Assembly (NCBI RefSeq): GCF_004336805.1
Contig: NZ_SJXM01000014.1
Span: 1 to 64,000 of the forward strand
Reading direction: 5' to 3'
DNA from: Aeromicrobium sp. IC_218
GTDB taxonomy: Bacteria; Actinomycetota; Actinomycetes; Propionibacteriales; Nocardioidaceae
Length of the DNA: 64,000 nucleotides
Numbering within the stretch: position 1 is the first letter of the stretch; each line of letters begins with the position of its first letter. The translations under genes were made by a program, and so were the position numbers. Positions 38,471 to 47,001 of this stretch are shown in pieces. The notes beneath the pieces were generated by a model. It had not been told where the DNA came from, ran no database searches, and saw nothing but the letters and a program-made list of their open reading frames with translations.

Positions 38471-39520
38471 TCAGCGGGTCCGGGTCACCTTGGACAGGCC
38501 CTCGGGGCGGTCCGGGTCGCGGTGACGGCTCAGGCTGAGCTCCAGCGCGAGCGCCTGGACCGGGACGATCTCGGCGACCGGCACGAGCGCGTCCTCCAGC
38601 CCGTCGAGACCGGGCACCGGCACGTCCTCGTGGTCGGTGCGACCGCCGACGGCCAGCGTGCGCGCGCCCAGGATGCGGACGTGGTCGAGCAGCTCGCGCG
38701 TGGAGCCGCCGCCGGGCGTGCCGAGACCGAGCCCGACGACCGGCGTGCCGTCCTGCACCTGGCCCACCGGACCGTGCCGGGCGTCGGCCGAGCTCCAGCC
38801 GGAGGCCGCGAGCCCGGAGGTCTCGATGAGCTTGAGCGCGCCCTCCTTCGCCGAGGCCATCGAGAACCCGCGTCCGACCAGGAGCGCTCGGTCCTCGCCG
38901 GCGAGCGTCGGCGCGGCGGACGCCGCCCACGACGACGCGACCTCGACGAGGACGTCGCCCACCTCCGCGAGCCGGCCGACCGCTGCCTCCAGGTCGTCCC
39001 ACGAGCGTCCGGCCACGCGACCGACGAGCAGGTAGAGGGCCAGCAGCTCGGCGGTGTAGCTCTTCGTCGCGGCGACCGACAGCTCGTCCCCCGCGTCGAG
39101 CGACACGTGCACGTCCGCCTCGACCGCCAGCGGGCTGTCCGGGGTGTTGGTGATCGAAATCGCGCGGACCCCGGTCTCCCGTGCGGCGCGGGCGGTCGCC
39201 ACGAGATCGGGCGACGCCCCGGACTGGGAGAGCGCCACCTGGATCGTCCGGGGGAACCGGGAGCCCCGCTCGAAGACCGTCACCAGGCTCGGCGTGGAGT
39301 GCACGGCCGGGACACCCAGCTCAGCCGCCGCCAGGTACTGCCCGTACAGCGCGGCGTGGTCGCTGGAGCCGCGCGCGACAAGGTGCAGCAGCTCGGGGTC
39401 GGTCGAGCGGACGAGCGCGGCCGCCTCGTCGAGCGGTCCGCGCGCGTCGCGCACGAGCCGCCGCCAGACGTCCGGCTGCTCGGCGACCTCGGCCCGCATG
39501 TGGGCGCCGGGGACCGTCAC
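38471..39520 (-). CDS. SIS-domain sugar isomerase/deaminase (NagB-II/AgaS-like)
   Basis: The 349-residue protein has two SIS domains like the isomerase half of glucosamine-6-phosphate synthase. Typical elements are ARGSSDHAALYGQYL, ALSQSGASPDLVA, NTPDSPLA, GRGFSMASAKEGALKL and a C-terminal SADARHGPVGQV loop. Stand-alone proteins of this kind deaminate or isomerise amino-sugar phosphates (NagB-II, AgaS) or split ketosamine phosphates (FrlB). GTG 39518-39520 overlaps the upstream ATPase stop (GTGA); ATG seven codons later is an alternative. It is the last gene of the operon and probably acts on the ROK kinase product. Confidence 0.85.
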   Translation of the reverse strand: MTVPGAHMRAEVAEQPDVWRRLVRDARGPLDEAAALVRSTDPELLHLVARGSSDHAALYGQYLAAAELGVPAVHSTPSLVTVFERGSRFPRTIQVALSQSGASPDLVATARAARETGVRAISITNTPDSPLAVEADVHVSLDAGDELSVAATKSYTAELLALYLLVGRVAGRSWDDLEAAVGRLAEVGDVLVEVASSWAASAAPTLAGEDRALLVGRGFSMASAKEGALKLIETSGLAASGWSSADARHGPVGQVQDGTPVVGLGLGTPGGGSTRELLDHVRILGARTLAVGGRTDHEDVPVPGLDGLEDALVPVAEIVPVQALALELSLSRHRDPDRPEGLSKVTRTR

Positions 39521-40257
39521 TGCGCCAGGCCCGTGATCATCGCGACGAGGTCGTTCTTGGCCACCTCGTCGATGCGCCGGGTGCCGACCTGGGTGCCTCG
39601 GCGCAGCACCGTCACGCGGTCGGCGACGCGGAAGACCTGCTCGAGGTTGTGCGACACGATCAGCACCGCGGCGCCGCGTGCCTTGAGCCGCAGGATCGTC
39701 TCCTCGACCTTCGCGGTCTCGGCGACGCCGAGGGCGGCGGTCGGCTCGTCCATGAGCACGAGGCCACGAGCCCAGTGGGTGGCGCGAGCGATCGCGATGC
39801 CCTGTCGCTGGCCGCCGGACAGGTCGCTGAGCGTGGCGTGCGGCGACGGGATCCGGACGTCCAGCTCGGTGACGAGGTCCTGCGTCTCCCGGGCCATGCG
39901 GGCTCGGTCGAGCGTCCGCAGCGGCCCCTTGGTGAGCTCTCGGCCCAGGAACAGGTTCATGTACACCGGCTGCTGGTCGACGAGCGCGAGGTCCTGGTAG
40001 ACGACCTCGACGCCGTGCGCGCGAGCGTCCGAGGCGTCGCGGAACGAGACCGGCTCGCCGCTCAGCCGGATCTCCCCGTCCGTGGGCTGGTAGAGACCCG
40101 AGATGATCTTGACGAGCGTGGACTTGCCGGCGCCGTTGTCGCCGACGAGTGCGACGATCTCGCCCGGAGCGACGTCGAGGTCGAACCGTTCGATCGCCGT
40201 CACGGCGCCGAACTGCTTGTGGATGCCCCGCAGCTCCAGGGCGGACTCGGTGGTCAT
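39517..40257 (-). CDS. Sugar-type ABC transporter ATP-binding protein
   Basis: A single-domain 246-residue ATPase with Walker A GDNGAGKST, signature LSGGQRQG and Walker B LVLMDEPTAALG. Single-domain ATPases with the GDNGAGKST form resemble FrcA of the fructose/ribose-type (CUT2) importers. It pairs with the permease (41486-42439) and lipoprotein (44542-45657) in the same operon. The start overlaps the PLP gene stop by 4 nt (ATGA). Confidence 0.95.
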   Translation of the reverse strand: MTTESALELRGIHKQFGAVTAIERFDLDVAPGEIVALVGDNGAGKSTLVKIISGLYQPTDGEIRLSGEPVSFRDASDARAHGVEVVYQDLALVDQQPVYMNLFLGRELTKGPLRTLDRARMARETQDLVTELDVRIPSPHATLSDLSGGQRQGIAIARATHWARGLVLMDEPTAALGVAETAKVEETILRLKARGAAVLIVSHNLEQVFRVADRVTVLRRGTQVGTRRIDEVAKNDLVAMITGLAQ

Positions 40258-41477
40258 CGTGCTCCCTCCAGCCCGCGCAGGGCGTCGTCGACGGTCAGCA
40301 CCGGGGCGCCGTTGGCGGCCCAGGCGCGATGGGCAGTGGGTGTGGTCCCCACGCCCGACAGCCCCACGGTGAGGCTGCGGCTCACGAAGACCTGCGGTCG
40401 GAACCCGAACAGCACGGTGTCGCCCGGCGACACCGTCACCGGTGGGGACTCGATGACCGCGTAGTAGTCGATGGCCTCGGGAGCAGGCATCTCGATCGTC
40501 ATCTCGGTGGCGTCCGCCAGGCCACCGCCCCGCGGCACGACCAGGACCGTCGTGGGCACCGGTCCGAGCACGGGATCGGCGTAGAGGCCACCGCCGAACA
40601 CGAAGGCGTCGCCGCCGTGCAGGTGGGACACCTCGCTCACGTACACCAGCGCCGGTTCCTCGGCGAGGTCCTGCACCGCGTGCAGCGGCGTCGTGCCGGT
40701 CAGCCCGTGCCCCGGCTCGACCTGGGTCGATCCCGCGGCGGCGAGGGTCGCGAGCACCGCCGAGGAGGTGGTGCCGGGCGTGTTCATCTCCACGTCGGTG
40801 CGTCCGGCCGCCTCCAGCGCGCGACGGGCCGCCTCCACGGTGGCCAGGTTCGGGGTCGGACGGACCTCGCCGGACTCGCGGTCGAACAGCAGCGTCGGGA
40901 AGGTGGTCACGCCGGCCAGCTCGACTCCGTCGATGGCGTCGAGCTCGTCGGCGACGCGCACCACGTCGGCGGCGTCGAACCCGCCCTCGTGGCCCCGGTA
41001 GAAGCGGTCCCCCGGCGCGGAGAGGCGCGCGAGCACCCGCTGCGTACGTCCGGCGCGGCGGGCCGCGGCACCGGCCTCCCGCGCCTTCTCCAGGCTGAAG
41101 ACCGTCCAGAAGTCCGGCGTGAGGGCCGCGGCCTCGTCGGCCCGCGAGCGTGGCACCTGGACGAGGTGCCCGAGGTGGCCGGTGCGCAGGCCGCCGGCGG
41201 CGGCCGCGATGCCGCACTCCAGGTCGACGGCGACGGCCGCGTCGATGCCACCGCGGCGAATGGCCTCGGACGCGTCGGGGTTGCGGCCGATCTGCTTGGT
41301 CATGGCGAAGGGACGGAGCCCCAGCCGGGCCGCCTCCGACGCGAGCGTGCGAGCGTTGCGCTCGATCGCGTCCAGGTCCAGGACGGTGGAGTTGGCCGGC
41401 ACCTCGCCGGACTGGTGGAGCGCGGCGGCGGCCTCGAGCAGTGCCGGGTTGCGGCGGCGCAGGGTCTGCAGGAACAC
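40254..41477 (-). CDS. YhfX-family PLP-dependent protein (alanine racemase-type barrel)
   Basis: The 407-residue fold-type III PLP protein closely follows E. coli YhfX as I recall it. Shared features are the N-terminal RRNPALLEAA, the PLP-lysine segment MTKQIGRNP, HLVQVP, a conserved VEPGHGLTGTTP and the SEVSHLHGGDAFVFGGGLY segment. Alanine-racemase N-terminal-type barrels act on amino acids (racemases, aldolases, dehydratases), but the reaction of YhfX is not established to my knowledge. The start is GTG 41475-41477. It sits between the ABC permease and ATPase genes, an odd place that ties it to the imported substrate. Confidence 0.85.
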   Translation of the reverse strand: MFLQTLRRRNPALLEAAAALHQSGEVPANSTVLDLDAIERNARTLASEAARLGLRPFAMTKQIGRNPDASEAIRRGGIDAAVAVDLECGIAAAAGGLRTGHLGHLVQVPRSRADEAAALTPDFWTVFSLEKAREAGAAARRAGRTQRVLARLSAPGDRFYRGHEGGFDAADVVRVADELDAIDGVELAGVTTFPTLLFDRESGEVRPTPNLATVEAARRALEAAGRTDVEMNTPGTTSSAVLATLAAAGSTQVEPGHGLTGTTPLHAVQDLAEEPALVYVSEVSHLHGGDAFVFGGGLYADPVLGPVPTTVLVVPRGGGLADATEMTIEMPAPEAIDYYAVIESPPVTVSPGDTVLFGFRPQVFVSRSLTVGLSGVGTTPTAHRAWAANGAPVLTVDDALRGLEGAR

Positions 41478-41485
41478 GGTGACTC

Positions 41486-42439
41486 CTAGACGGTCTTCTT
41501 GGCGCGCAGCGAGAGCGAGACGGCGACGAGGATGATGACGCCGCGCACGATCATCTGCTGGGAGACGTTGAGGCCGGCCAGGATGAGGCCGTTGTTGATC
41601 ATCGCCATGAGCAGGCTTCCGACGAGGGCACCGATCATGGCCGCCTTGCCGCCGGCCAGCGCGGTGCCGCCCACGATGACCGCGGCGAGGACGGACATCA
41701 TGTCGCTCTCACCCAGGGTGTACCGAGCACCCTGGAGGCGCCCGCTGTACAGGACGCCGGCGAGCGCGGCGGCCGCGCCGCTGATCATGAACACGCCCAT
41801 GCGCACGCGGTTGACCTTGACCCCGCTGACGCCCGCGGCGCGGGCGTCGTTGCCGACGGCCAGGACATGGGCACCGAACCGTCGCTGGCGCAGCACGTGC
41901 CAGCCGACGGCCACGACGACGACCGTCCACCAGACCATGATCGACACGCCGAGCAGGTCGCCGCCGCCGAACAGCCACACGAACGTGTCGTCGACCACCG
42001 GCACCGACTTCAGGTCGGTCATCTGGCGGGCCACGCCCACCAGCAGCCCCATCGTCGCGAGGGTGACCAGGAACGACGGCAGCCGGACCACGGTGATGAA
42101 GAAGCCGTTCACCGCGCCGATGAGGACGCCGATGCCGAGCCCGGCGAGCGCCGCCAGCCACCAGGCCTCGGTGGACTCGAGCACCATCGCGCTGCCCAGG
42201 GCCGCGACGGCGACCGTCGAGCCGATCGACAGGTCGATCTCGCCGGTCGCCAGCACGAAGACCGTGCCGACGGCCATGACGGTGATCGGAGCGGCCTGCA
42301 CCACGATGTTGGTGAGGTTCGTCGTGGTGAGGAAGTACTCGGTCTGGGTCAGGGCGAAGTAGGCGAAGACGAGCACGAAGCCGAGGTAGACGACGTAGTC
42401 GCGCCAACGCGTCCCGAGGCGGTCGAGGGCCGTGGTCAT
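41486..42439 (-). CDS. Sugar-type ABC transporter permease (RbsC/FrcC-like)
   Basis: The 317-residue integral membrane protein has about 8-10 hydrophobic helices and the BPD_transp_2 pattern of CUT2 permeases: GEIDLSIGSTVAVAAL in the first half, NDARAAGVSGVKVNRVRMGVF before the last helices and a C-terminal GVIILVAVSLSL. One copy would form the membrane channel as a homodimer. ATG 42437-42439 overlaps the ROK kinase stop (ATGA). Confidence 0.95.
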   Translation of the reverse strand: MTTALDRLGTRWRDYVVYLGFVLVFAYFALTQTEYFLTTTNLTNIVVQAAPITVMAVGTVFVLATGEIDLSIGSTVAVAALGSAMVLESTEAWWLAALAGLGIGVLIGAVNGFFITVVRLPSFLVTLATMGLLVGVARQMTDLKSVPVVDDTFVWLFGGGDLLGVSIMVWWTVVVVAVGWHVLRQRRFGAHVLAVGNDARAAGVSGVKVNRVRMGVFMISGAAAALAGVLYSGRLQGARYTLGESDMMSVLAAVIVGGTALAGGKAAMIGALVGSLLMAMINNGLILAGLNVSQQMIVRGVIILVAVSLSLRAKKTV

Positions 42440-43344
42440 GACGGACTTCCTTCCGTGAGATGAGCCTGGGCGGCGAGCCGCAGCGCCCCGACGAGCGCAG
42501 GGTCGCCGGCGACGGCGCTGTGCCGCAGGTCGAGGTCGTGGCCGAGCAGCGTCAGCTCGGCACGCACGAGGTCCAGCAGGTCGTGCCGCGACCCGACCCC
42601 ACCACCCAGCACCAGGCAGGCGGGGTCGACCACGGCGTGGACGGCGACGAGCGCCTCGGCCAGGTGCCGGGCGGCCCCGCGCACCGCGTCGCGAGCGTCG
42701 GCGTCGGTGGCGAGGCGGGCGAAGACCTCGCGGGTCGCCAGACGGTCGCCGGTGCGCCGCGCGTACTCGGCCGCGATGGCCGGGCCCGACACCGCGTCCT
42801 CGAGCGGACCGCGGACGCGGTGACCCGGGTCGCGCGGGTCGCGGCCCAGCGGCAGGTAGCCGATCTCGCCGGCGCCCCCACGCGCGCCGCGCAGGAGCCG
42901 GCGGTCGGCCACCACCCCCATGCCGATGCCGGTGCCGACGGCCACGAAGACGAAGGAGTCGACCTCGCGGCCGACGCCCGCGTGCAGCTCACCCAGGGCG
43001 GCAGCGTTGACGTCGTTCTCCAGCACGACCGCGTGGCCCAGACGCGAGCCGAGGGCGGCCGCGAGACCGTCCGCCGGCAGCGTCAGGTTGGGGGCGAGCG
43101 CCAGGCTGTCACGCTCGTGGTCGGGCACCCCGGCACCGGCGACGGCCGTCGCCTCCACGTCGGAGACGGCGACGTCGGCCCGGCGCGCGACCGCGTCCAC
43201 CGCCGACGTGAGCTGCTCGACCAGGTCCTGGCCGGCCGCGTGGGTGGCCAGCTCCACCTGCGCGTCGACGGAGCCGTGCCCGTCGCCGAGCGCGGCGCGG
43301 ATCTTGGTGCCCCCGAGGTCGACGCCGACGAAGACGCCGGTCAC
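42436..43344 (-). CDS. ROK-family sugar kinase
   Basis: The 302-residue protein has an N-terminal phosphate-1 motif VGVDLGGTKIRAALG, an ENDVNAAALGE active-site region and FVAVGTGIGMGVV. The DNA-binding extension of ROK repressors is absent, so it is an enzyme. The usual ROK zinc-binding CxCGxxGC cluster is missing: the segment after GEIGYLPLG reads RDPRDPGHRVRGPLED. It would phosphorylate the imported sugar or amino sugar before the SIS protein acts. GTG 43342-43344 overlaps the upstream stop by 4 nt. Confidence 0.88.
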   Translation of the reverse strand: MTGVFVGVDLGGTKIRAALGDGHGSVDAQVELATHAAGQDLVEQLTSAVDAVARRADVAVSDVEATAVAGAGVPDHERDSLALAPNLTLPADGLAAALGSRLGHAVVLENDVNAAALGELHAGVGREVDSFVFVAVGTGIGMGVVADRRLLRGARGGAGEIGYLPLGRDPRDPGHRVRGPLEDAVSGPAIAAEYARRTGDRLATREVFARLATDADARDAVRGAARHLAEALVAVHAVVDPACLVLGGGVGSRHDLLDLVRAELTLLGHDLDLRHSAVAGDPALVGALRLAAQAHLTEGSPS

Positions 43345-44342
43345 GAGCGATCCTCGACCGTCAGCAGGCGCGCCGGCGTGCGGGCCAGCATCGTCTCGAC
43401 CGCGTCCTCGCCCACGCCGCGGGCGAGGAGGCGCGGGACGAACTGCTCGGCGAGGTACCGGTAGCCGAGCGTCCCGTGGGTCGTGGGGTTCATCCAGCAC
43501 TCGGCTCCCGTGAGGTCCTGGGCGAGCACCACGCGCTCGACGTGGCCGGCGGCGACGAGGGCGGCGACCAGGTCGGCCCGCCGGTCGTCCGACCGGTGGA
43601 AGGCGCGCTTGGCGAACTCGCCCTCGGGACGCTCGGTGTCGGCGGGACCGAGGAAGAAGTCCCACTCCTGCTTGCCGATCGTGTCGACGGCGACCAGCAC
43701 GCCCCGCTCGGCGAGCGACAAGGCCGGCTCGACCTCGAGCTGGGTGTCCAGGTGGCCGATGACGACCCGGTCGAGGTCGGCGCCCTCCTCCAGGGCGAGG
43801 TCGACCTGGTCATGGGCCATCGTGCCGTGGGTCGTGTGCGTGAACAGGGCCAGGCCGGTGCGTCGCTGGGCCCGGAGCACGGCGCGGAACGCCTTCTCCT
43901 CGTGGTCGGTGATCTCGCCCAGCCCGGTGGCCTGCTCGCCGAGCACGCCGGCGCGCACCGAGGTCGCGCCGATGCCGGTGGTCGCGTCCGCGACGAAGCG
44001 GTCGGCGAGCTCCTCGACGGAAGCCTCCCGGGCCCAGTCGGGCGAGAAGCTCTCGAGGTAGACGGCAGTGCCGGCGACGACGTGCAGGCCGGTGCGGCGG
44101 GCGACCTCCCGCAGCGCCTCGACGTTCGCGCCGTCCGCGTCACGACCGACGACGCCGTACGGGCTCAGGTCGACGACCGTGCCGAAGCCGAGGTCGCGCA
44201 GCGGCAGGAGCGCGGCGACGGCCGCGTCGACCGCGTCGGCGCCCCAGTCGCCCGGCTGCAGCGAGAAGACGTGCTCGTGGGGCATGACGCGGCCGAGCGT
44301 CTGCGGGTCCACCGGACCGAGCACGGTCTGGACGTGGGGCAC
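43341..44342 (-). CDS. Phosphotriesterase-family protein, PHP (Glu) subtype
   Basis: The 333-residue amidohydrolase-superfamily protein has the metal-binding HxH as MPHEHVFS, further metal ligands in FTHTTHG and IGHLDTQ, and the catalytic Asp in VLAQDLTG. The residue bridging the two metals appears to be Glu in RAGVLGEQATG, aligned to the AGIIAE of E. coli PHP, rather than the carboxylated Lys of true phosphotriesterases. Related proteins include lactonases. GTG 44340-44342 gives MPHVQTVLGPVD. Its pairing with YhfX is as in E. coli yhf; the substrate is unknown. Confidence 0.88.
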   Translation of the reverse strand: MPHVQTVLGPVDPQTLGRVMPHEHVFSLQPGDWGADAVDAAVAALLPLRDLGFGTVVDLSPYGVVGRDADGANVEALREVARRTGLHVVAGTAVYLESFSPDWAREASVEELADRFVADATTGIGATSVRAGVLGEQATGLGEITDHEEKAFRAVLRAQRRTGLALFTHTTHGTMAHDQVDLALEEGADLDRVVIGHLDTQLEVEPALSLAERGVLVAVDTIGKQEWDFFLGPADTERPEGEFAKRAFHRSDDRRADLVAALVAAGHVERVVLAQDLTGAECWMNPTTHGTLGYRYLAEQFVPRLLARGVGEDAVETMLARTPARLLTVEDRS

Positions 44343-44372
44343 GACGGGCTCCTTGGGCGGGGAAGGTGGTGG

Positions 44373-44533
44373 CCTCGGGCGGGACGCTCGGGGGACGGCG
44401 TCCCGCCCGAGGAGCGGGAGGGAGACCGTGGGCGAAGGATCTCGGGGAAGACTCCCCCGCCCACGGTGTCCGGGTGGGAGCGCGTGGCTCCCGGGGCCGT
44501 GGACGCCGACCGCGGGGATCGGCGGCGTCCACG
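44373..44533 (-). terminator. Three stacked hairpins between the binding-protein and phosphotriesterase genes
   Basis: Three stable stems lie in the 199-base gap: 44498-44508 with 44523-44533 (11 bp), 44425-44434 with 44458-44467 (10 bp) and 44373-44386 with 44399-44412 (14 bp). The first begins nine bases after the binding-protein stop codon in mRNA order. They probably act as partial terminators or 3' stabilisers that make the binding-protein message more abundant than the rest of the operon. No gene is seen in the gap. Confidence 0.65.
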
Positions 44534-44541
44534 AAGCCTGG

Positions 44542-45657
44542 TTACTTCGTGGCGGCGGCCGGCGGCTCGGTGCCGTAGTCGGCCTGCCAGGCCTCGGTGA
44601 GGTTGTCGAGGGTGACCTTGACCGGCGGCGAGGCGACCAGGGCGGGCGCCTGCTTGCCGAGCAGGTCGTAGGCGGCGGCGGTCGCGAGGCCGCGACCGAT
44701 GTCCAGCGACCCGTTGCCGACCATGCCCACCACGTTGCCCTCGTCGGCCATGTCCGTGGCCAGCGTGGCGTCCAGGTCGTTGGTGACGACCTTGACGTCG
44801 CTGCGACCGGCGTTGCGCAGGGCCGAGACGACACCCTGGGCGGCGGTGGCCCAGGAGACGTAGATGCCCTCGATGTCGGGGTTGCGCGTCAGCATCGCCG
44901 TGGCGATCTCCTCGGTGCGCGACTCGTCGGCGAACCCCTCCTCGGCCACCACCTCGATGTCGGGGTAGGAGAACGCCGTCCAGTCCAGGAACGCCTCGTC
45001 GCGCTGGTTGGTGAACCAGAAGTCGGCGTCGTGGAACAGGTAGCCGACCTTGCCCTTGCCGTCGAGCGCGTCGCCGAGGATCTCGGCGTTGGCCCGGCCG
45101 GCGTCGGTGAGGGACTCGGTGACGATCGAGACGAAGTCCTTGCCCGCCTCGTAGTCGGCCGGCGGCGTGGTCATGATGACGAGCGTCTTGCCCGCGTCGA
45201 CGACCGGCTGGAAGGCCTTCTTGGCCGAGGTCGCGTCGACCGCGATCGTCACGACGACGTCGGGGTCGAGCGCCATGACGCTCTCGACGTTGTTGGCCTG
45301 CGTGGCCGCGTCGAAGTCGGCCTGGGTGCTGGAGACGACGTCGATGCCCAGCTTCTCGAACTCCTCCGTGGCGCCCTTCTCGACCGCGGAGACGAACTCC
45401 GAGGACGTGTGCCAGACGAAGGCGGCGGTGTGCTGGCCGGCCTCGACCTTCTCGGTCTCGTCCGCCGAGAGCGTGAGGGCGTCCAGGCCCTCGGGCTTCT
45501 CGCCGTTCGGGCCGACGAACTCCAGGCTCGGCTCGGAGGCGGGTCCGGAGGAGGAGGTCTCGTCGTCGTCGCCGGAGGCGCACGCCGAGAGCACGAGGGC
45601 TGCGGCGGCGAGCGTCCCGACGAGGGCGCGGCGCCGACGGTGGCGAAGAGCGTTCAT
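44542..45657 (-). CDS. ABC transporter substrate-binding lipoprotein (sugar type)
   Basis: The 371-residue product has a lipoprotein signal (RRRRALVGTLAAAALVLSAC, Cys26) and an acidic linker, then a periplasmic-binding-protein type 1 (Peripla_BP_4) fold: AAFVWHTSSEFVSAVEKGA, VVVTIAVDATSAKKAF, IEGIYVSWATAAQGVVSAL. It delivers the substrate to the RbsC-like permease. AAGGA lies eight bases before the ATG. It is the first gene of the seven-gene operon, under a promoter region with repeated TTGCCCAGATTT sites. Confidence 0.94.
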   Translation of the reverse strand: MNALRHRRRRALVGTLAAAALVLSACASGDDDETSSSGPASEPSLEFVGPNGEKPEGLDALTLSADETEKVEAGQHTAAFVWHTSSEFVSAVEKGATEEFEKLGIDVVSSTQADFDAATQANNVESVMALDPDVVVTIAVDATSAKKAFQPVVDAGKTLVIMTTPPADYEAGKDFVSIVTESLTDAGRANAEILGDALDGKGKVGYLFHDADFWFTNQRDEAFLDWTAFSYPDIEVVAEEGFADESRTEEIATAMLTRNPDIEGIYVSWATAAQGVVSALRNAGRSDVKVVTNDLDATLATDMADEGNVVGMVGNGSLDIGRGLATAAAYDLLGKQAPALVASPPVKVTLDNLTEAWQADYGTEPPAAATK

Positions 45658-45697
45658 GGGCAGATCCTTCTCGATGGTGGCGGCCTCGGGGGAAGGC

Positions 45698-45752
45698 TTG
45701 CCCAGATTTTTCTTTCATCGTGCAATCAAAGTCAAGGGATTTGCCCAGATTT
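45698..45752. promoter_or_regulatory. Direct-repeat operator and promoter of the yhf-like operon
   Basis: TTGCCCAGATTT occurs exactly twice, at 45698-45709 and 45741-45752, 43 bp apart (about four helical turns). On the minus strand a -35-like TTGACT lies between them (45730-45735), so the repeats flank the probable promoter of the binding-protein operon. The stretch is AT-rich compared with its surroundings. The neighbouring divergent ROK repressor is the natural candidate to bind here. Confidence 0.55.
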
Positions 45753-45813
45753 GTTCGGAAGGGGCGCGAAGGTCGGACCGAGCGCCGCGCAGGTCTGCTA
45801 CTTTTCCGGCACT

Positions 45814-47001
45814 GTGGAAACCAAATCGTCCCCCGAGACGCGGCGTCCGCCCGCCGACCGCGCCGTGCTCACCCAGCTCGTCCGGTCGCGTCCGAGCACG
45901 CGGACCCGGCTCGCGGCCGAGACCGGCATGTCCGCGGCGACCGTCTCGCGCGCCGTCGACCACCTCGTCGAGGCGGGCGTGGTCCGGGAGGGCGCCGCGG
46001 TCGTCGCGGGCACGCGTGGACGCCGGGCGGTCACGCTCGACCTCGACGCGTCGCGCGGCGTCGTCGTCGGTGTCGATCTCGGAGCCACCAGCACCCGCCT
46101 GCTCGCGGCCGACCTCGTCGCCACGCCGGTCGCGGTGCGCGAGCTCGACACCGCCACCGGCCTGGACGCCCCGGACCTGGCCGCCTGGCTGGCCGAGCTG
46201 GTGCTCGCCCTCGCCGAGGGGTCCGCTCCCCTGCTGGCCGTCTCCCTGGGCCTGCCCGGCGCCGTGCAGTCCGACGGTCCGGTCGTCACCAACGCCAACA
46301 ACCTGCCCCAGGTCGAGGACCCGGCGTTCGTCCGCGTGCTGCGCGAACGTCTCGGGGTCGACCTGCACGTGCTGAACGACGCCGACCTCGCCCTGCTCGG
46401 CGAGCAGAGCTTCGGCGCGGCCCGCGGCGCGGCCGCGGCCGCCATCCTCACGTTCGGCACCGGGCTCGGCGGTGCGCTCGCCCGGCAGGGCGTCCTGGTG
46501 CAGGGCCCGCACGGCGTGGTCGGCGAGTTCGGCCAGCTGCCGGTCGGCCCGCTCGGCACCCGGCTCGAGCACATGGTCACGGGTCCGGGAATCATGCGCC
46601 GCGCCGCCGAGGCCGGTCTCGCGCTGAGCTCGCCCGCCGATCTCTTCACGTCCACGGCGCCGGCCGTCGCGTCCATGCGGGCGCAGTTCGACGGCGCCCT
46701 CGTCATCGCGCTCACCGCGGTCACGGTCGCCGCCGAGCCCGACGTGCTCGTGCTCGGAGGTCGCCTGGCTCCCTCGCTCGCGCCGCACCTGCCCGCCTAC
46801 GAGGCCGCGGTCGCGCACCACGTCCACTGCACGCCTCGGCTCGCACCGGCGGCGCTCGGGTCGTACTCGGGGGCGTGCGGCGCGGTCGTGGCCGCCCTGC
46901 GGGGCTGCTACCGCGACCTGGGCGTGGACGAGGACGCCCTGGGCGACGTGCCGATGGGGGCCGCGCTGGACCTGGACGCGCTCGAGGCCGTCCGCGCCTG
47001 A
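45814..47001 (+). CDS. ROK-family transcriptional repressor
   Basis: The 395-residue protein has an N-terminal winged helix (STRTRLAAETGMSAATVSRAVDHLVEAGVV, about residues 30-60) and a C-terminal ROK sugar-binding domain (VGVDLGATSTRLLAAD, LNDADLALLGEQ, FGTGLGGALARQG). Zinc-cluster cysteines are not evident. GTG 45814 is the best start just before the HTH region, though no strong ribosome-binding site precedes it. It is divergent from the ABC/yhf-like operon and probably represses it until a sugar or sugar phosphate binds. Confidence 0.9.
   Translation: METKSSPETRRPPADRAVLTQLVRSRPSTRTRLAAETGMSAATVSRAVDHLVEAGVVREGAAVVAGTRGRRAVTLDLDASRGVVVGVDLGATSTRLLAADLVATPVAVRELDTATGLDAPDLAAWLAELVLALAEGSAPLLAVSLGLPGAVQSDGPVVTNANNLPQVEDPAFVRVLRERLGVDLHVLNDADLALLGEQSFGAARGAAAAAILTFGTGLGGALARQGVLVQGPHGVVGEFGQLPVGPLGTRLEHMVTGPGIMRRAAEAGLALSSPADLFTSTAPAVASMRAQFDGALVIALTAVTVAAEPDVLVLGGRLAPSLAPHLPAYEAAVAHHVHCTPRLAPAALGSYSGACGAVVAALRGCYRDLGVDEDALGDVPMGAALDLDALEAVRA

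Follow-up and report, generated by a model that had tools for sequence, protein, structure and literature searches.

The stretch of DNA analyzed here (the window) comprises 64,000 nucleotides from Aeromicrobium sp. IC_218 (contig NZ_SJXM01000014.1, positions 1 to 64,000). It contains seven co-directional genes on the minus strand that face a divergent ROK-family repressor gene on the plus strand, all of them where the first-pass annotation had placed them. Pfam and NCBIfam models gave a clear family assignment for every product:

38471-39520, minus strand: SIS protein of the GlmS-isomerase/NagB-II type, proposed glucosamine-6-phosphate deaminase (SIS PF01380, 3.5e-28)
39517-40257, minus strand: ABC ATPase, single-domain CUT2 type, 246 aa (ABC_tran, 4e-29)
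40254-41477, minus strand: YhfX, PLP-dependent enzyme of fold type III (YhfX-like_C PF21279, 2e-18, and Ala_racemase_N PF01168)
41486-42439, minus strand: CUT2 permease, GguB/AraH-like (BPD_transp_2 PF02653, 1.3e-37)
42436-43344, minus strand: ROK kinase without the usual zinc motif (ROK PF00480, 8e-46)
43341-44342, minus strand: PTE-family metallohydrolase of the PHP/YhfV type, proposed amide hydrolase (PTE PF02126, 3e-55)
44542-45657, minus strand: CUT2 substrate-binding lipoprotein (Peripla_BP_4 PF13407, 7e-33; lipobox LSAC)
45658-45813, no strand: candidate divergent promoter/operator region (sigma-70-like site and 12-nt direct repeat)
45814-47001, plus strand: ROK-family repressor with HTH and ROK domains (NagC/AlsK/Mlc-type ROK models, best 1e-19)

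On the minus strand the genes run from the binding protein through PTE, ROK kinase, permease, YhfX and ATPase to the SIS protein. A 199-base gap separates the binding-protein gene from PTE; the five junctions that follow are 4-nt overlaps in four cases and an 8-base gap in the other. The cluster is bounded by LeuA at one end and by TetR and SDR genes at the opposite end. The divergent region contains one sigma-70-like site (minus strand, 45735-45706), overlapped by a perfect 12-nt direct repeat, TTGCCCAGATTT, at 45698-45709 and 45741-45752; this repeat is a candidate operator and was not found in the close relative L002. The repressor itself is closest to ROK models of the NagC/AlsK type.

The Peripla_BP_4 binding protein, BPD_transp_2 permease and RbsA-type ATPase identify the transporter as a CUT2 importer. 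The ATPase is most similar to the YtfR, XylG and MglA models of NCBIfam, of which it matches only the N-terminal half; it is thus a single-domain protein, in contrast to the usual fused double domain, and the long form is present at one Chloroflexota locus (L051). An AF2 model of the binding protein (pLDDT 92) adopts the ribose/allose-binding-protein fold, but its matches are general sugar binders of the ribose, allose and arabinose types at about 20% identity, from which a ligand cannot be predicted. The ROK kinase retains the DLGGTK and END motifs, so that DxGxT and the catalytic Asp of ROK sugar kinases are both present. The CxCGxxGCxE zinc motif is missing from this protein and from all 26 actinobacterial homologs examined, and these kinases (window 42436-43344 and the 26 homologs) form a consistent clade.

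The YhfX protein aligns with E. coli YhfX (PDB 4kbx) over 376 residues (3e-69). It carries the PF21279 C-terminal domain, the Ala_racemase_N domain and the PLP lysine, K61, which is invariant in 56 homologs. Its AF2 model (pLDDT 94) best matches 4kbx (TM 0.90), followed in order by D-threonine aldolase, alanine racemase and beta-hydroxyaspartate aldolase. In a profile comparison, YhfX and E. coli Alr did not align well enough to place the tyrosine of racemases. No characterized member of the YhfX family was found in the literature searched, where mentions of YhfX and the yhf operon were incidental.

A similarity scan of GTDB genomes with the window YhfX yielded a set of 80 loci. The order permease-YhfX-ATPase is kept in 75 of the 78 that have upstream room, across Actinomycetota, Alphaproteobacteria and Chloroflexota, an arrangement that is more than chance and that disfavors the idea of YhfX as a passenger gene. 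The three departures are L011, L023 and L074; in L023 the transporter genes have been lost and PTE, a ROK gene and YhfX remain. In actinobacteria the cluster runs from the repressor through binding protein, PTE, ROK kinase, permease and YhfX to the ATPase, which SIS usually follows. In alphaproteobacteria it comprises a ROK regulator, an M20 hydrolase, one binding protein or two, then permease, YhfX and ATPase, with SIS in some cases, and in most of these operons the sole ROK protein carries an HTH. The first-pass annotation had made its case depend on YhfX and PHP being present in the syntenic clusters of close relatives, and a second genome of the genus (L100, on the contig shared with L002) keeps the whole cluster at 64-86% protein identity. 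Altogether the operon is a genuine, conserved catabolic unit of known enzyme families, undescribed within the literature searched. The distribution is scattered. Of the 58 relatives other than the window genome, 4 have YhfX, and all 4 belong to its genus; sampling gave 5 genomes with YhfX among 397 of the phylum (the window genome included), 11 among 151 for Chloroflexota and 8 among 299 for Pseudomonadota.

Several loci show variations on this theme. In Microbacterium halotolerans (L011, 10001-12416) a tandem YhfX pair is divergent from the remaining cluster. In another Microbacterium (L010, 12046-14512) the SIS slot holds the 5-oxoprolinase PxpA with a PxpB/C-looking gene downstream, which may be incidental. 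The minimal unit, at L123 (9757-13735), consists of a ROK regulator, a permease that resembles APC-type amino-acid permeases in sequence, and YhfX; the L075 cluster holds a similar permease.

The hydrolase gene varies as well. Among the 68 loci with full flanks, exactly one of PTE and M20 is present in 66, neither in two and both in none. Actinobacterial loci have PTE in 24 of 25 cases, with M20 in the other (L080), and alphaproteobacterial loci have M20 in 41 of 42; M20 is also found in the actinobacterial L098, and L051 is without any hydrolase. This split mostly tracks phylum, so independent exchanges are few, the clear ones being L080 and L098. The M20 proteins are nearest the ArgE/DapE deacylases and keep their metal motifs in most loci. 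A third type is found in a sister operon of the window's genus (L101), whose Amidohydro_3 enzyme is D-aminoacylase-like and has PRK09061 as its best NCBIfam match. The window PTE itself retains the metal ligands H22, H24, E136, H169, H197 and D276, invariant in the alignment, and scores 146 bits against PRK09875, below the curated cut-off of 486 bits. Its bridging metal ligand is a glutamate, as in E. coli PHP and in PTER, an animal N-acetyltaurine hydrolase with metal residues H26, H28 and E169 whose top structural match is 3K2G (PMC11374699). The same entry, 3K2G, is a top match among the best PDB hits of the window PTE. PTER and the window protein thus share the PTE fold and a Glu-bridged metal site; PTER is, however, an animal enzyme, and a substrate common to the two has no present support. 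For three unrelated or distantly related hydrolase types, amide hydrolysis would be the reaction on which they best converge, and the replacement of PTE by M20 or Amidohydro_3 argues with moderate strength for amide cleavage rather than lactone chemistry.

The SIS protein retains all eight equivalents of GlmS S303, S347, Q348, S349, K485, E488, H504 and K603, as do eight related SIS proteins. It scores 185 bits against the NagB-II model NF046059, far below the curated cut-off of 430 bits, which no relative reached in the 54 genomes searched. In four loci from two phyla (L029, L031, L055 and L098) the SIS gene is replaced by the unrelated NagB-I: it begins 31-37 bases past the ATPase stop codon in L029, L031 and L055 and lies at the end of the actinobacterial L098 operon. 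When matched by position to the genome-wide NagB-I hits, the L029 copy (G933:C46:753877-754593) scores 264.9 bits and the L031 copy (G934:C10:252710-253432), the sole NagB-I of its genome, 263.2 bits, both against a curated cut-off of 236.9 for glucosamine-6-phosphate deaminase. As NagB-I and SIS proteins are unrelated, have one known reaction in common and occupy the same slot in two phyla, deamination of glucosamine-6-phosphate is indicated. Together with the GlmS residues and the homolog of GlcNAc kinase that L101 encodes beside YhfX and SIS, this replacement gives good support to the view that the sugar half most likely exits via glucosamine-6-phosphate to fructose-6-phosphate. The first-pass annotation had proposed an aminated sugar, and this part of it gains support.

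No NagB-I was found in the window genome, which otherwise holds two SIS/GlmS homologs, both GlmS-sized. Most other actinobacteria with an operon SIS carry a NagB-I elsewhere. All 23 genomes whose operons are without a deaminase have one elsewhere, and most genomes with a SIS-containing operon likewise carry NagB-I, so this comparison does not discriminate. Because many host genomes already have NagB-I, the operon SIS may prefer a distinct substrate, for example an N-substituted glucosamine-6-phosphate.

From the observed gene content, gene order, conservation, enzyme families, retained catalytic residues and replacement pattern, we infer a route, with its individual reactions, the sequence of its steps, the amide bond and the nature of the amino acid alike, to which we assign about an even chance: the operon would encode complete import and catabolism of a glucosamine-type sugar to which an amino acid is joined by an amide bond, that is, an N-aminoacyl or related conjugate. 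We envision a scenario in which, after import of the amino-sugar conjugate by the binding protein, permease and ATPase, the ROK protein adds a phosphate at C6 of the sugar and the PTE-family protein hydrolyzes the amide bond. The SIS protein would then turn glucosamine-6-phosphate into fructose-6-phosphate and ammonia, YhfX would racemize or otherwise convert the amino-acid part, and the divergent ROK repressor would control the operon. A role for YhfX on the amino-acid part is weakly suggested by its family, and racemase is our preferred guess over aldolase or dehydratase because the D-aminoacylase-like partner suggests D-amino acids. Counting against the racemase step, the nearest characterized folds to the modeled YhfX are D-threonine and hydroxyaspartate aldolases rather than racemases. 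Counting against the route as a whole are the SIS score of 185 against 430 bits, the kinase without a zinc motif, the NagB-I elsewhere in most SIS hosts, the small number of independent PTE/M20 exchanges, the hydrolase-free L051 and the HTH-bearing ROK protein that stands alone in most alphaproteobacterial operons.

Other readings of the same genes have to be weighed against this one. Kinase, hydrolase and deaminase steps parallel NagK-NagA-NagB, and the cluster could be an ordinary GlcN/GlcNAc operon in which PTE or M20 would do no more than N-deacetylation and YhfX would be a passenger or a protein of cofactor handling. We consider this quite improbable: YhfX sits inside the transporter genes in nearly all loci of three phyla, persists with PTE and a ROK gene in L023 though the transporter genes are missing, and in L123 has a ROK regulator and an APC-type amino-acid permease as its only companions. 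Somewhat easier to credit, yet still unlikely, is a Heyns-type substrate, an N-(1-carboxyalkyl)-glucosamine similar to glucoselysine, from which SIS or NagB would free fructose-6-phosphate and the amino acid after phosphorylation, with PTE or M20 removing a separate N-acyl group and YhfX racemizing the amino acid. Such a substrate fits the SIS/NagB exchange and explains why an operon SIS persists alongside a chromosomal NagB-I. It accounts only loosely for the near-constant amide hydrolase, however, and it would have NagB-I act on N-substituted substrates, which to our knowledge it is not known to accept.

Two further possibilities relate to the Amadori and lactone ideas of the first-pass annotation, both of which have lost ground. 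One is an Amadori route, in which SIS would deglycate a fructose-amino acid after its import and phosphorylation, and YhfX and PHP would handle the amino-acid or lactone-like part. The combination of SIS, kinase and amino-acid enzyme is as expected for such a route, and in E. coli the frl operon adjoins yhf. The SIS protein lacks FrlB character, however: E. coli FrlB is without GlmS S303, Q348, S349, K485 and K603, all of which the window SIS has. Among the NCBIfam matches listed for SIS, the FrlB model scores lowest (18.5 bits), and in some operons NagB-I stands in for SIS. By the residue comparison SIS is not an FrlB-type deglycase, and we regard the Amadori route as very unlikely. The lactone branch could take the form of an amino-sugar acid route, with PTE as an aminoaldonolactone lactonase and YhfX as a dehydratase or aldolase on a 2-amino-2-deoxyaldonate. 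Many PTE relatives are lactonases and the fold neighbors of YhfX use beta-hydroxy-alpha-amino acids. Against this, the enzymes that replace PTE are M20 and D-aminoacylase-like amide hydrolases, its Glu-bridged metal site is as in PTER, and the substrates of SIS and NagB are aldose phosphates, not aldonates, making this route equally hard to sustain. We favor the aminoacyl amino-sugar route as a working model.

The operon has features in common with several known systems. The nag pathway for GlcNAc (NagK, NagA, NagB/NagB-II) likewise joins a kinase, an N-acyl hydrolase and a glucosamine-6-phosphate deaminase, and the SIS protein can be replaced by NagB-I; window-type operons differ in using PTE, M20 or Amidohydro_3 instead of NagA, in their extra PLP enzyme and in their CUT2 importer. 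The frl, fra and gfr systems for Amadori and Heyns compounds also combine import of an amino-acid/sugar conjugate with a kinase and a SIS protein. Unlike them, the window operon has a GlmS-type rather than FrlB-type SIS site, no PfkB-type kinase, and an added hydrolase and YhfX.

Another close system is the yhf operon of E. coli (yhfZYXW-php-yhfUTS), which shares YhfX and PHP with the window operon and for which, in K-12, no described pathway was found in the open-access literature searched. It differs in using YhfU/YhfT for transport instead of a CUT2 ABC importer, in encoding the mutase YhfW and the aminotransferase YhfS and in being without a ROK kinase; these YhfU, YhfT, YhfW and YhfS partners are absent from the window operon and from L002-L081. 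The E. coli genome, used as a control, has nagB outside the yhf operon, and the adjacency of frl and yhf there does not show common chemistry. The first-pass annotation had linked YhfX and PTE with an importer of the CUT2 type, a ROK kinase and a SIS protein resembling NagB-II, and this is supported. Its yhf link is real as well: three genomes of the same genus (L102, L103 and L104) have yhf operons of the E. coli type that terminate in a SIS gene of the same NagB-II type, that of L104 encoding a NagB-II-like protein. In Chloroflexota (L121) a GlmS-type SIS gene similarly lies alongside the yhf operon, and a yhf operon from Cetobacterium includes an amidase. Because the importer changes while the combination of YhfX, PTE and a glucosamine-type SIS turns up again, yhf and window-type operons probably share a substrate class.

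By linking YhfX and PHP to an exit via glucosamine-6-phosphate and to a step that cleaves an amide, the replacement patterns suggest what YhfX, PHP and several SIS proteins with fold-only annotation may do, and they narrow the orphan yhf pathway to a few substrates and assays that can be tested. They also raise the possibility, which we offer as speculation and consider doubtful, that (D-)aminoacyl amino sugars are a common, unrecognized nutrient class used in at least three phyla by a YhfX-centered pathway, of which E. coli yhf would be a version with a different importer. If so, YhfX would become the first characterized enzyme for aminoacyl amino-sugar conjugates or their D-amino acids.

A second YhfX operon in a genome of the window's genus (L101, 9070-15100), with YhfX, a ROK regulator, a BadF-type, NagK_SO3507-like homolog of GlcNAc kinase, Amidohydro_3 and SIS, lies downstream of transporter genes. 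At L144 (7885-8507) two small genes that by eye resemble PTS EIIA/EIIB follow a yhf operon, a hint that YhfT/YhfU could be PTS-linked.
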